DNA of 20,142 nt. Origin: a virus. The stretch is from the IMG/VR virus record IMGVR_UViG_3300022602_000512, positions 1 through 20,142 of that record, one strand, 5' to 3'. Below are positions 6,598-20,142 of the stretch, in pieces (the first letter of the stretch is position 1; each line of letters starts with the position of its first letter). The translations under genes were made by a program, and so were the position numbers. The notes under the pieces are model-generated. The model did no database searches, was not told where the DNA came from, and worked only from the letters and a program-made list of their open reading frames with translations.

Positions 6598-8385
6598 ATG
6601 CACCCGAATACACCCGCACATCCCGTTAGCTTCCCCCCCGGCAAATCCCTCGCCCTCTGCATCATCGCGGGGAATGTCGAACATTACATCGAGCGATTCA
6701 TCCGCTCCTTTCAAAAACTCACCCCGCACATTTTCGTTGTGCGAGCCGTGGGGAATCAGGTGCCCGACCGCACGTTGGAGATCGCCCAGGCGATGGGGTG
6801 CCAGATCAATGCTTATTACAATTCGCCCGAGCATGCCGACTGGCCCCATGTCGACAATTTCGGCGCGGCCCGCCAGATGGCCTTCGACCTCGGCACGGCA
6901 GCCGGTCATCAGTTCCTCATGTGGGCCGACACCGATGACTGCATCGATCCTGAGAGTGTGAAAGAGATTCATGCCCTTCTCCGCGAGCAGGAATTCGACT
7001 GCCTCTATCTTCCCTACCGACTTTCCAATAACAACCTCGCCCCCGTCCGCGAGCGCATCATCCGTGCCGGGACATTCCGCTGGCAGGATCGCGTGCATGA
7101 AAGCCTCGCCGCCGTGATCGAGGAGCCTCGCTATCTCCGGGGAACCGGGGCCGAGGTCACCCACATGCCGGGCACCCATCGGAACGATCAGCCCAATGCA
7201 CGGAACACCCGCATTCTGGAAAGTCTCCGCAAGGAAGATGGGGGTCTTTTGCCCCGATGGTGCTTCTATCTCTGCCAGGAGTACGAGGTGCAAGGCCGTC
7301 AGGAGGAAGCAATCCGCACGGCCTTGGAGGGCATCACCGGTTGGCAGGCCGACCGCAGCGCGCTCCAGTCCTGCGAGGCCTACGAACTCTACGTCATGCT
7401 TGCGCGGTGGGGATCGGATCCGAATGCCAAGCTGGCCCTCCTGCGCGAGGCGTGGGCACTCGAGCCGTGGCGTCGCGAGGCCCTCGCCCTCATGGCCGGT
7501 GCCTATGCCGACCTTGGATCGGCTGCGGAATGCCTCGCCCTGGCACGCATGACCGTCTCCCTTCCCGAACCTCCGTTGCAGCCGTGGACTCATCGTTCCA
7601 GCATCTACCGTTTGGGAGGAATTTACCTCTACACGATGGCGTTGCGGATGAATGGGATGAATTCCGAGGCCGACACCCTCGAGGAGCAGATGTTCCGTCA
7701 GGGTGGATCGATGATCTCCATCATTCACCCGACGCATGGCCGCCCCGCTGCGGCCGCCCGGGTACGTTCCCTCTTCCTGGAGCGCGCCCGTCACCCCGAG
7801 CGGATTGAGTATCTCTTTGGATACAACGAGGCCGACACCGAGAGCGCCGCGATCCTGAGCCGGTTCCGGCATGCCGTCAGCCCGGCCTTTGACGATCCGC
7901 AAAAGCCGACCACCGTGGCAAATGCCAATGCCGCCTTTGCCAAAAGCTCCGGCCAGATCCTTGTCATGGCAGCCGACGACGTCGAGCCTCCCTTCTGGTG
8001 GGACGAGACACTGCTTCAGCAGATCGGCGACCCGACCCAGCCCGCCGTCCTCGAGGTCGGCGACGGCCACCGCAAGGACGATCTCCTCGCGCATCCCGTT
8101 TTTACTCGGAGCGTCCCCGCCCTGCTCGGCCTGCCCCCGGGGGAAATGTTCTCAAGCGAATACGATCATCTTTTTTTCGACACCGAATTCACATTCCGAG
8201 CGCGCAGGGCACGCCTGGTGAAACCTTCCACCCTCACCCTGACCCATCATCACCCGATGTTCGAGCCGGTCGAATTCGACGCCACCTATCAGCGCGGGAA
8301 CAACCCCGAATCCTACGCCCGAGGCGAGGCCACCTATCGCCGCCGCAACCCGGAGGCCTTCGGCCCCGCCGATCTGATTGTATGA
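6598..8385 (+). CDS. two-domain glycosyltransferase (GT2-like, GT-A fold)
   Basis: 595 aa. Domain 1 (about residues 15-240) is GT2-like: it opens KSLALCIIAGNVEHYIERFI, has the family-typical conserved D/N stretch around HVDNFGAARQMAF, and a DXD-type metal/nucleotide-sugar site at D111-T-D-D114 (LMWADTDDCID). A helical middle (about 240-370), with TPR-like helices such as EEAIRTALEGI and AKLALLREAWALEPWRREAL, links to a second GT-A-like domain starting at M372 (ISIIHPTHGRP) with an acidic pair D460-D461 (MAADDVEPPFWW). It probably transfers sugar from a nucleotide donor; the acceptor (capsid, tail or host surface) is unknown. It sits between the capsid terminator and the connector genes and ends in an ATGA overlap. 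The lack of a signal peptide suggests a cytoplasmic enzyme. Confidence 0.8.
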   Translation: MHPNTPAHPVSFPPGKSLALCIIAGNVEHYIERFIRSFQKLTPHIFVVRAVGNQVPDRTLEIAQAMGCQINAYYNSPEHADWPHVDNFGAARQMAFDLGTAAGHQFLMWADTDDCIDPESVKEIHALLREQEFDCLYLPYRLSNNNLAPVRERIIRAGTFRWQDRVHESLAAVIEEPRYLRGTGAEVTHMPGTHRNDQPNARNTRILESLRKEDGGLLPRWCFYLCQEYEVQGRQEEAIRTALEGITGWQADRSALQSCEAYELYVMLARWGSDPNAKLALLREAWALEPWRREALALMAGAYADLGSAAECLALARMTVSLPEPPLQPWTHRSSIYRLGGIYLYTMALRMNGMNSEADTLEEQMFRQGGSMISIIHPTHGRPAAAARVRSLFLERARHPERIEYLFGYNEADTESAAILSRFRHAVSPAFDDPQKPTTVANANAAFAKSSGQILVMAADDVEPPFWWDETLLQQIGDPTQPAVLEVGDGHRKDDLLAHPVFTRSVPALLGLPPGEMFSSEYDHLFFDTEFTFRARRARLVKPSTLTLTHHHPMFEPVEFDATYQRGNNPESYARGEATYRRRNPEAFGPADLIV

Positions 8386-18145: not shown

Positions 18146-18706
18146 ATGAATGCTCTCTCCACAAAGTTGCTCGATGCGGCGATCGAGGAAGCCGTTACAT
18201 CTGCCCGCAGCCTCGGTGCCAATGTGCAGCGGGTTGCTCCTGTCTCGCTTTCGGTAATTGATCAGGGAACAACTTCCGAGACGATCCGCACCGATGTCGT
18301 CACCTACAAAGGACAGAAAGGATTCAAAGTCACGGGAACCCTATCGATCGGAACATTTTCAGTTTCTCGATACGTCCAATCCCTCCCCGAATCCAAAACG
18401 ACGGCATGGCCCGAAAATCTGGCAACCGAAGCCGCCGCATGGCCCGCTGCCTGCCTAATCGCCGCCGAAAAACATGTCGAGCTACAAGGATTCACCGCGA
18501 CCCGTCTGGTGACGTTGCTGAACGCTTATCTGGTGAAGTTCGCCGCCACCGGAAACAATCCATCCGTTTTGGCCGCGAGCAATCCGAAGCTCGCTGCGGT
18601 CTATGCCTGGACACAATCCGTTCAAGCCGCAGCAGCCACAGGGTCGAAACAATTCCCTCCGGCTCCATTCACGTTTGCCTCGGTCATCGAGGAGTTGCAC
18701 GCATGA
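18146..18706 (+). CDS. hypothetical protein after the fibre gene (186 aa)
   Basis: Starts 3 nt after the fibre stop. It is helical at the N-terminus (LLDAAIEEAVTSARSL), then a beta region (FKVTGTLSIGTFSVSRYV), then helices rich in Ala (ATEAAAWPAACLIAAEKHVE; AAVYAWTQSVQAAAATGSKQ) and a proline end. The location suggests a fibre partner or fibre-assembly protein, but I recognise no family. GC-rich codon use returns at once here, in contrast with the LamG part upstream. The stop overlaps the next start (ATGA). Confidence 0.5.
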   Translation: MNALSTKLLDAAIEEAVTSARSLGANVQRVAPVSLSVIDQGTTSETIRTDVVTYKGQKGFKVTGTLSIGTFSVSRYVQSLPESKTTAWPENLATEAAAWPAACLIAAEKHVELQGFTATRLVTLLNAYLVKFAATGNNPSVLAASNPKLAAVYAWTQSVQAAAATGSKQFPPAPFTFASVIEELHA

Positions 18707-18900
18707 ACCATTCCGAACCCATCATCCCTGGCATCGCTGGCTCGGTGATTTCCGCGATCACTTCCGTCACGTTTCTTGGAGTCTCCCTTCTTGAAACTCA
18801 CCCCGCGGTTCAGGATATCGCGGTTTTCATTTCCATCGGTGCGGCTTGCTTTTCCATCTGCGCCTCGGCGGTAACGATCTGGAAAAATCTGAAGAAATGA
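18703..18900 (+). CDS. holin-like small membrane protein (65 aa)
   Basis: 65 aa with two hydrophobic segments, IIPGIAGSVISAITSVTFLG (about 7-26) and IAVFISIGAACFSICASAVT (about 39-58), and a basic tail (IWKNLKK). This is the layout of a class II holin, which permeabilises the inner membrane at lysis. ATGA overlaps link it to both neighbours, so it is translated with the lipoprotein gene. No family signature was found, so holin is inferred from size, topology and the nearby muramidase-like gene. Confidence 0.55.
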   Translation: MNHSEPIIPGIAGSVISAITSVTFLGVSLLETHPAVQDIAVFISIGAACFSICASAVTIWKNLKK

Positions 18901-19115
18901 AACCGTCGACCAAAGAATATCTGGTCTTGGTTTTGGAAATCCTTCTGGCGTTCTTTGTCGCGGCCACCGTCCTTGTGGGGGTCATGGGATGCTCCGCTGC
19001 TCCCATCCGTCACACTTCGGCTCCAGACACCTCGATCTCCCAAGCTGCGGCGATCTCAGACCAAATTGACGGGAAGGCCGTGCTCATCCAGCAGTGGTTG
19101 AAACAGAATCACTAA
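18897..19115 (+). CDS. small lipoprotein, possible outer-membrane spanin (Rz1-like, 72 aa)
   Basis: Lipoprotein signal: basic start (MKPSTKE), hydrophobic core LVLVLEILLAFFVAATVLVG (about 9-28) and a lipobox-like VMGC with C32 as the lipidation site; Met at -2 is slightly off-consensus. The mature part is about 41 aa, polar, without the high proline content of classic Rz1. In Gram-negative phages such a protein spans from the outer membrane to an inner-membrane partner to fuse the membranes at lysis. The next gene encodes a coiled coil with TM segments that could be the partner. The alternative is an unrelated membrane-anchored protein. Confidence 0.5.
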   Translation: MKPSTKEYLVLVLEILLAFFVAATVLVGVMGCSAAPIRHTSAPDTSISQAAAISDQIDGKAVLIQQWLKQNH

Positions 19116-19156
19116 TATGAAATCCCCCAAGGTGATTTCTTTCTTTTCCTGAGTTC

Positions 19157-19621
19157 ATGAGTTCCACATTCAAATTCTCCCTGCTTTTTCTTCTCTGCGT
19201 CTCTGCGCCTCTGCGCGAGATTTCTGCGGCTGATCTCTCCAATGTCAGCAAAGCCGACATCCTCGCCACGGTCTCCCACATGGAATCGCTCGCCCGTGAG
19301 CAAAAGGTAGCACTCCTTAAAGCTCAAGCCGATTACCAGCAGCAGGGGGCAGCTCTCCAAGAAGAGACTGTCTTGGCCGAAAAATACAAGGCTCAGCGGG
19401 ACACGGCAGAAAAGGAGCGGGACGCCCTTGTCTGGATTTTCTCCCTTGCTGCCGGGATGGCTGCTCTTTCCACCTTTTCGCCAGCATTGAAAATTATCCA
19501 GATGCCTTGGCAAATCGTCGCGCTGGCTGGGGTCTTCGTCGCCGGGTTCGCACTCGGATTCTCGGTGGGCCGTTGGTGCCTCCATTTTCTCGCCCAATTT
19601 ACCCCCCACCTTCCGTTCTAA
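19157..19621 (+). CDS. coiled-coil membrane protein, possible spanin-like (154 aa)
   Basis: The N-terminus (MSSTFKFSLLFLLCVSAPLR, with possible cleavage after EISA, about residue 24) looks like a signal peptide. Residues about 30-92 form a long charged coiled coil (SKADILATVSHMESLAREQK; AEKYKAQRDTAEKERDAL). Two hydrophobic segments follow, IFSLAAGMAALSTF (about 94-107) and QIVALAGVFVAGFALGF (about 119-135). This could place a coiled coil in the periplasm anchored by C-terminal TM helices, as in spanins. The signal-peptide codons overlap a tandem CTCTGCGY repeat tract (19193-19216), so the N-terminus may come from repeat DNA, or the true start may lie further in. No SD precedes ATG 19157. Confidence 0.5.
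   Translation: MSSTFKFSLLFLLCVSAPLREISAADLSNVSKADILATVSHMESLAREQKVALLKAQADYQQQGAALQEETVLAEKYKAQRDTAEKERDALVWIFSLAAGMAALSTFSPALKIIQMPWQIVALAGVFVAGFALGFSVGRWCLHFLAQFTPHLPF
19193..19216 (+). repeat. tandem octamer CTCTGCGY x3, dispersed-repeat-like
   Basis: CTCTGCGT (19193-19200), CTCTGCGC (19201-19208) and CTCTGCGC (19209-19216), followed by GAGATTTCTGCGG. I recall the same wording as a frequent intergenic repeat in many bacterial genomes (reverse strand GCGCAGAGGCGCAGAGACGC), but I have not searched for it. It lies inside the signal-peptide codons of the 154-aa gene. Confidence 0.65.
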
Positions 19622-19882
19622 ATGAATCTTTGGAGCTACATTCGCTCCGTCCATGCGGAGAATACGACCGATTCCTGGATGAGGTGGGTCGGCACGGCCT
19701 TCACGGGATTCCTCGTTGTGATCTTGGGATATTCCGTCTTCTGCCACCATGCCCTCGATGAGGCAATGAGCGGGATTCTAAAAGATCTCGCCTACACGAT
19801 CTACGGCGGCGGGGCACTCCGCAAGGGCATCGAGGTGGCAGGATCGGCTTTTGGCAATCAATCTCCCCCACCCGGCGCATGA
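19622..19882 (+). CDS. small membrane protein, second holin-like candidate (86 aa)
   Basis: Starts at the base after the previous stop and ends in an ATGA overlap with the muramidase-like gene. A polar N-terminal part (MNLWSYIRSVHAENTTDSWM) precedes one hydrophobic segment (WVGTAFTGFLVVILGYSVF, 22-40). A second amphipathic part (GILKDLAYTIYGGGALRKGI, 51-70) may be membrane-associated, and the Pro-rich tail is short. The tight link to the muramidase favours a holin or antiholin role, but the family is not known. Confidence 0.5.
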   Translation: MNLWSYIRSVHAENTTDSWMRWVGTAFTGFLVVILGYSVFCHHALDEAMSGILKDLAYTIYGGGALRKGIEVAGSAFGNQSPPPGA

Positions 19883-20142
19883 CGATTCATGATATCCTGG
19901 CCGACGGCACCCGCCCTCGGCTTCCTCGATTCCTTCAGGCTCTCGCGATCCTGCTCCCTCTGGAATGTGCTTTCGAGCGGGATGGGGTGACCATTCGGAT
20001 GGAATGCGTCCCGGGGGACTCGGGCGGGCGCACTTTTGCGGGCATCGATGAATCGTCCCATCCCGGATTTCCGTTTGATCACCCCACCCCCTGCGCCGTG
20101 CTCGACACCTACGAAACGGAATTTGACCTCCTCCGCAGCGGA
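19879..20142 (+). CDS. GH108-like muramidase/endolysin, 3' end beyond the window
   Basis: 88 codons are present and the frame is open at the window edge. The start ATG 19879 overlaps the previous stop. The N-terminal part (RFLQALAILLPLECAFERDG) places an acidic residue (E29 or E33) where GH108 muramidases have the Glu of their EGG motif, and VPGDSGGRTFAGIDESSHPG (44-63) corresponds to the DPGGxTxxGI-type stretch of that family. It would cleave peptidoglycan at lysis. No signal peptide is seen, as expected for a holin-dependent endolysin. The catalytic and cell-wall-binding C-terminal parts cannot be judged, so the call is tentative. Confidence 0.5.
   Translation, partial: MTIHDILADGTRPRLPRFLQALAILLPLECAFERDGVTIRMECVPGDSGGRTFAGIDESSHPGFPFDHPTPCAVLDTYETEFDLLRSG

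Follow-up and report, generated by a model that had tools for sequence, protein, structure and literature searches.

A dispersed octamer repeat has probably replaced the start and signal sequence of a putative phage lysis gene

How a gene in a phage lysis cassette can begin with DNA that elsewhere lies dispersed and mostly between genes is the question raised by this locus. The window analysed here is the whole 20,142-base IMG/VR virus record (IMGVR_UViG_3300022602_000512), which belongs to a lambda-type tailed phage according to its terminase, portal, major head protein and tape measure. Its right end carries the following genes:

18703..18900, + strand: 65-aa small membrane protein, homologous to a 60-aa protein of the related phage G015 (BLASTP, 40% identity, pairwise E 7e-13)
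18897..19115, + strand: 72-aa lipoprotein, candidate o-spanin, with lipobox VMGC; its start (ATG 18897) overlaps the upstream stop
19157-19621, + strand: open reading frame of the 154-aa protein, N-terminus MSSTFKFSLLFLLCVSAPLREISAADLSNVSKADILATV
19622..19882, + strand: 86-aa membrane protein in a holin-like slot, by its position and a weak pairwise similarity to a 102-aa protein of G015 (E 0.15)
19879..20142, + strand: GH108-type endolysin gene, 5' part, truncated by the record end, 54% identical over 79 aa to L024:6610-7185

The endolysin homologue in phage contig L024 scores with Glyco_hydro_108 and PG_binding_3, while profile searches gave no Pfam or PHROG family at a convincing E-value for the 65-aa membrane protein. 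The 72-aa lipoprotein has its cysteine after a hydrophobic signal and is homologous in four relatives (38% identity and pairwise E 2e-17 to the 68-aa lipoprotein of contig L069; 64% over 28 aa to that of G015), with VMGC being only a partial fit to the lipobox consensus quoted in PMC6139136. On the opposite strand, positions 19112-19750 hold an antisense open reading frame of 212 aa, longer than the real lysis gene, so that a length-based caller chooses the wrong strand here; reading the octamers backwards yields pseudo-proteins rich in R/E.

The preliminary description had proposed that a dispersed repeat with a triple CTCTGCGY writes the signal peptide of the 154-aa gene. The octamer run is indeed present at 19193-19216, composed of CTCTGCGT (19193-19200) and two units of CTCTGCGC (19201-19208 and 19209-19216) followed by GAGA, and the three octamers encode L13 to R20 of MSSTFKFSLLFLLCVSAPLREISAAD. 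An order-1 model predicts about 0.0003 two-unit copies for the window, which puts the run far beyond chance. Two phrases of repeat DNA were delimited by BLASTN-short matches:

19142..19178, + strand: left repeat phrase TTTCCTGAGTTCATGAGTTCCACATTCAA with its core at 19145-19173, including a TGA and the new ATG
19186..19222, + strand: octamer phrase, TTTTTCTT + (CTCTGCGY)3 + GAGATT

The left phrase, of which GAGTTCATGAGTTCCAC at 19151-19167 is a part, matches the sister phage L013 in 23/24 nt (window 19142-19165), L008 in 27/29 nt (19145-19173) and L024 in 32/35 nt (19144-19178). The octamer phrase with its T-rich leader (19186-19215) is identical in 30/30 nt to the Nostoc HK-01 plasmid (L067), and the octamer phrase matches a Thiodictyon plasmid (L066) in 34/35 nt (19188-19222) and phage contig L002 in 30/30 nt. 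Together, the phrases cover 74/81 nt of 19142-19222 and 56/63 nt of codons 1-21 of the 154-aa gene, which supports the proposed origin of the signal; of the 25 codons originally assigned to the repeat, the first 21 or 22 belong to it, but the stretch up to codon 25 does not, ISAAD being part of the native gene. A left-phrase variant stands directly 5' of an octamer run at L024:12869-12922, which is also their order in the window. The whole composite, with both phrases as in the window, was not found elsewhere, and two scans of the genome contig collection gave 0 hits with long, over-specific patterns that exclude only the exact composite.

The octamer repeat is a dispersed intergenic sequence, occurring at many unrelated sites and replicons. 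An exact 27-mer from it is present in two copies in L002, with an expectation of ~4e-7 per billion bases under an order-1 model of the window. In the viral contig collection, the pattern CTCTGCGYCTCTGCGYCTCTGCGYGAGA was found in 11 stretches and two units plus GAGA in 26. A distant BLASTN search with 19120-19240, the check proposed for dispersed matches, retrieved 22 of 72,556 plasmid records, from Sphingobium, Sphingomonas, Nostoc, Thiodictyon, Anabaena and others. The copies are mostly intergenic, as the preliminary description had stated: 19 of the 20 plasmid rows listed, out of the 22 records, have no annotated gene at the match (by an incomplete PLSDB table), and 18 of 43 distinct viral copies lie between open reading frames, which make up all but 10% of that DNA, as judged by a crude caller that favours the antisense frame in the window itself. 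The repeat query matched 0 of 20,395 records in the E. coli collection, and annotated phages gave three weak matches to the repeat region, all inside other genes. The repeat had also been suggested as a clue to the host; with copies on plasmids of Cyanobacteria, Gammaproteobacteria and Alphaproteobacteria, it names no host by itself.

Some octamer copies in the Thiodictyon plasmid and in one Sphingobium plasmid form inverted pairs. Such pairs, tens of bases apart, lie in W01 (NZ_CP020372.1) at 195169-195227 and 204132-204191 and in W04 (AP027328.1) at 73095-73242, and they resemble hairpin arms or element ends. Contig L024 harbors six octamer-repeat copies (5068, 6333, 7216, 7340 and others), several of them where genes of the lysis region meet.

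Movement of the left phrase was seen within the same phage lineage. A stretch of 233 nt between two tail genes of sister phage L013 is absent from the window; it carries the left phrase, together with a 28-nt inverted partner, 75% complementary and 153 nt apart. The corresponding junction is 32 nt long in the window and 32-37 nt across the window, L017, L018, L039, L040 and L041. Since L013 has an insertion with the same phrase and the six other records are without it, repeat-type DNA does enter this lineage; in this insertion only the left phrase is seen to move, without the octamers. With its inverted TTCCTGAGTTCC-type arms, the insertion (L013:9427-9659) looks like a small mobile non-coding element. 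In the sister phages L013 and L014 (96% portal), the sequence stops short of the 154-aa gene, which leaves the stage immediately preceding the change out of view.

A search with the 154-aa sequence alone gave no relatives. A search from the window protein aligned with G015 recovered L068-L071, of which L071 is G015 itself, making four homologues (L068, L069, L070 and G015). The portal of G015 is 67% identical to that of the window, and its cassette has the order 60-aa protein, lipoprotein, 114-aa protein (MKAILGAIVALGMASCTLHAIEISKADQIATL...). Contigs L068-L070 have the same operon, with the gene following a 68-aa lipoprotein at a TGA-4 nt-ATG spacing, and they share with the window an identical 18-residue block, ISAADLSNVSKADILATV, which begins exactly where the repeat ends; before it stands another signal peptide (MKSQFLRHVLPLMFIFCGFID in L069). 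The N-terminal reading of L069 is MKSQFLRHVLPLMFIFCGFIDISAADLSNVSKADILATVRHM, from which L070 differs by one residue and L068 by three. Over 151 aa, the 154-aa protein is 40% identical to that of L069 (pairwise BLASTP, E 2e-32). The octamer tandem is absent from L068-L070 and L065. Thus, the homologues of the coiled-coil part, when their native N-termini were inspected as had been advised, differ from the window as the repeat origin predicts. With dispersed copies present as well, neither of the refuting outcomes named beforehand was observed.

19220..19621, + strand: native part of the gene, by homology to L069 and the helix model: cleavage-site residues ISAAD, coiled coil, membrane hairpin, stop

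Neither the 154-aa protein nor its L069 homologue had a convincing Pfam or PHROG family in profile searches. Among 14 phage records, no match appeared at E up to 1 in a search that missed the distant cassette of G006 and excluded G015; in annotated phages, the mature protein had no significant match, and the window end gave matches at chance level. A 186-aa neighbour found no relatives in its search. The impression that the remainder of the protein is ordinary agrees with a low-confidence AlphaFold2 model (five sequences, mean pLDDT 70), in which a long helix (32-111) is followed by the membrane hairpin (118-148), with a further helix at 3-19 and a break at 20-31. The predicted signal cut would fall in this break.

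Homology to the relatives breaks at the join. In the comparison with L069, z over shuffles is 13.7 for the 67 nt that precede the native ATG, -0.6 and -0.1 for the signal codons, and 26.3 for the 63 nt that follow them. Across L068-L070, the ranges are 5 to 15 upstream (weakest in L068, z 5.1), -0.8 to -0.1 in the signal codons and 24 to 26 after the join. Ungapped nucleotide identity is 87/120 from the ISA codon onward versus 24-25/63 before the join, and the nonsynonymous difference per site falls from 0.59-0.60 to 0.22-0.23. No residual homology above shuffles was detected between the native and the new signal-region DNA. Beyond the join, codons 1-21 run in frame into the conserved block, and the repeat is thereby predicted to be read as part of a conserved protein. 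We infer that the relatives' form, with the native signal, is the ancestral one.

Remains of the older arrangement can be recognized beside the new one:

19117..19152, + strand: presumed native-start remnant MKSPKVISFFS; a single base separates its ATG from the stop codon of the lipoprotein gene (TAA 19113-19115) and it ends at TGA 19150-19152
19157..19219, + strand: repeat-coded signal n- and h-regions, codons 1-21, MSSTFKFSLLFLLCVSAPLRE, by phrase matches and hydropathy

Directly after the lipoprotein gene, the homologues start with MKS (L068-L070) or MKA (G015). ATG 19117 lies 103 nt before the ISA codon in the window, and the corresponding distance in L069 is 63 nt; the net increase of 40 nt shifts the old start into another reading frame, and its TGA sits inside the repeat. 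Four nucleotides after this TGA stands the new ATG 19157, so that the stop-to-start distance is that of L068-L070 (TGA-GTTC-ATG in the window; TGA-TGCC-ATG in L069 and L070). Copies of the left phrase in L008, L013 and L024 have C at the position of the A in this ATG; the start codon itself may have arisen by one substitution in the left phrase. The expected hydrophobic core was found in this frame: over ten residues, the new signal peaks at a Kyte-Doolittle hydropathy of 2.59, versus 2.43-2.55 in four native signals, a value reached by 31 of 6,902 reads from an ATG in shuffled DNA of the window.

These data are best explained if the repeat entered and replaced the native signal and start, supplying a new start and signal with the rest of the protein kept, and this is probably what happened. 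The earlier alternatives, that a repeat landed and supplied a signal or that it displaced the real start, would then both be partly true at once. The ancestral cassette would have held, after the small lipoprotein gene, a gene with a Sec signal peptide (MKS...ISA-AD), a coiled coil in the periplasm and a membrane hairpin at the C-terminus. Intergenic repeat DNA, comprising two phrases of 8-bp units, would have entered and replaced the signal-coding stretch; the old ATG (19117) would now open an 11-codon minicistron ending at the TGA inside the repeat, and the repeat's own ATG (19157), four nt on, a new frame. In it the T-rich leader and octamers would encode the hydrophobic core LLFLLCVSA, in frame with the old cleavage region. 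Ribosomes coming to the minicistron from the lipoprotein gene would presumably stop at the TGA and restart at TGA-GTTC-ATG, and such reinitiation is a plausible route to expression because the new ATG keeps the stop-to-start distance of L068-L070. The protein would be exported, probably cut after ISA or SAA, and may form a spanin-like pair with the lipoprotein during lysis.

A less favourable outcome is that the repeat broke the gene: with the native start destroyed, and ATG 19157 unused or its new N-terminus non-working, the locus would be a young pseudogene. The insertion shifts the reading frame relative to the native ATG (the 103 versus 63 nt given above), and no Shine-Dalgarno sequence is evident by eye before 19157. 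Against this, the new signal equals the native ones in hydropathy, the stop-4 nt-start geometry is restored, and the frame is intact for 133 codons downstream, although a very recent insertion would leave it intact as well. We consider loss of function unlikely.

A wider reading goes beyond replacement at this one gene, taking the octamer repeat as a portable export signal that, by landing before genes in these phages and their hosts, mints signal peptides repeatedly. As the unit is 8 bp and stop-free, any sense frame gives the octapeptide L-C-(A/V)-S-A-(P/S)-L-R, and with the T-rich leader a hydrophobic N-terminus would result in any frame; the leader matters, since the octapeptide alone reaches a hydropathy of only 1.31. 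By crude calling, two of the 43 phage copies lie within 25 codons of a same-strand frame start and neither is convincing as an N-terminus, one being in a frame antisense to a likelier gene and the other in a TTG-started frame. The 26-aa signal peptide found no match on plasmids. Repeated minting is quite unlikely.

It could also be that ATG 19157 was always the start, that only the end of the signal gained octamers and that the 37-nt longer upstream gap was a separate event. This is weakly favoured by the equal length of the new and native signals (21 codons up to ISA) and by their agreement with L069 at 4 of residues 2-21, a level that 885 of 10,000 shuffles reach. However, the dispersed left phrase covers 19142-19178, including ATG 19157, and it is the upstream ATG 19117, rather than 19157, that carries the conserved MKS, which makes a constant start rather improbable. 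Assemblers do misjoin at repeats, and a metagenomic chimera joined at the repeat would bring foreign sequence together, but the two genes flanking the join are the same neighbours in the same order in L068, L069, L070 and G015, an order that a random misjoin would not restore; an artefact of this kind is very improbable. Signal-coding DNA is pyrimidine-rich and diverges fast, yet ordinary divergence of a T-rich stretch into repeat likeness by chance is hardly credible when a 27-mer with the above expectation occurs twice in L002 and two separate phrases both match elsewhere. A split of one unimolecular spanin (u-spanin) gene into two by the repeat was considered and dropped: G015 and L068-L070 have two genes without the octamer repeat.

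Replacement of the start and signal by repeat DNA has a partial precedent. According to PMC10969869, Rickettsia palindromic elements are ~150-bp repeats translated in frame inside unrelated open reading frames, and the likeness is that a dispersed repeat becomes a translated in-frame part of a gene. They differ, as described there, in being palindromes fused into the frame, whereas here phrases of 8-bp units would replace a start and signal, in a phage; no inverted repeat was found in window 19040-19300. The octamer repeat is also similar to MITE/REP-type elements in being short, non-coding and mostly intergenic with some copies in inverted pairs, but no terminal repeats or target duplication are shown by the window copy. 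Six-base ATTTCT on both sides (19135, 19220) was rejected as a target-site duplication, being too short for the claim. Among open-licence PMC papers, no report was found of a repeat supplying a start codon and signal peptide, nor, among those listed, of such an octamer repeat, and, judging by their listing, none of the papers containing one of five octamer strings deals with a bacterial repeat. Translated repeats inside bacterial genes are known; supply of a start codon together with an export signal seems new. The locus looks like a non-coding repeat caught in the act of rewriting an export signal, next to which the old start can still be read. It also hints at a way for a lysis gene of a phage to outlast an insertion expected to destroy it.

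The 72-aa and 154-aa proteins resemble a two-component spanin of unusual topology, a function predicted from sequence. As in lambda Rz/Rz1, a small lipoprotein gene adjoins that of a coiled-coil periplasmic protein bound to the inner membrane, in a holin/endolysin cassette. An Rz-type i-spanin has an N-terminal membrane domain, whereas sequence and model give the 154-aa protein a cleavable-looking signal and a C-terminal hairpin; because its membrane part is C-terminal, it was not filed as an Rz-type i-spanin (Kongari et al.). A lipoprotein signal and a C-terminal membrane domain in one protein characterize the unimolecular spanin T1 gp11, and the genes of G006 and G020 in this slot share that layout, but the window has these features in two separate genes. 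The 192-aa protein of G020 (contig L024) has a lipoprotein signal; it clearly shares only its C-terminal part with the window family, its last 88 residues being 42% identical to the L069 protein (pairwise E 8e-24), and no significant match to the lipoproteins of the cassettes was obtained with its N-terminal part. The membrane module thus appears to have carried three kinds of N-terminus. That this slot of related cassettes holds one-gene (u-spanin-like) and two-gene forms whose membrane modules are homologous bears on the origins of spanin types, with L024:5740-6318 (a single u-spanin-like gene) and L069:3932-4387 as a possible link between them. Elsewhere in the window, a 595-aa gene at 6598-8385 with a family-2 glycosyltransferase domain (Pfam E 2.9e-8) lies inside the head-tail morphogenesis module.
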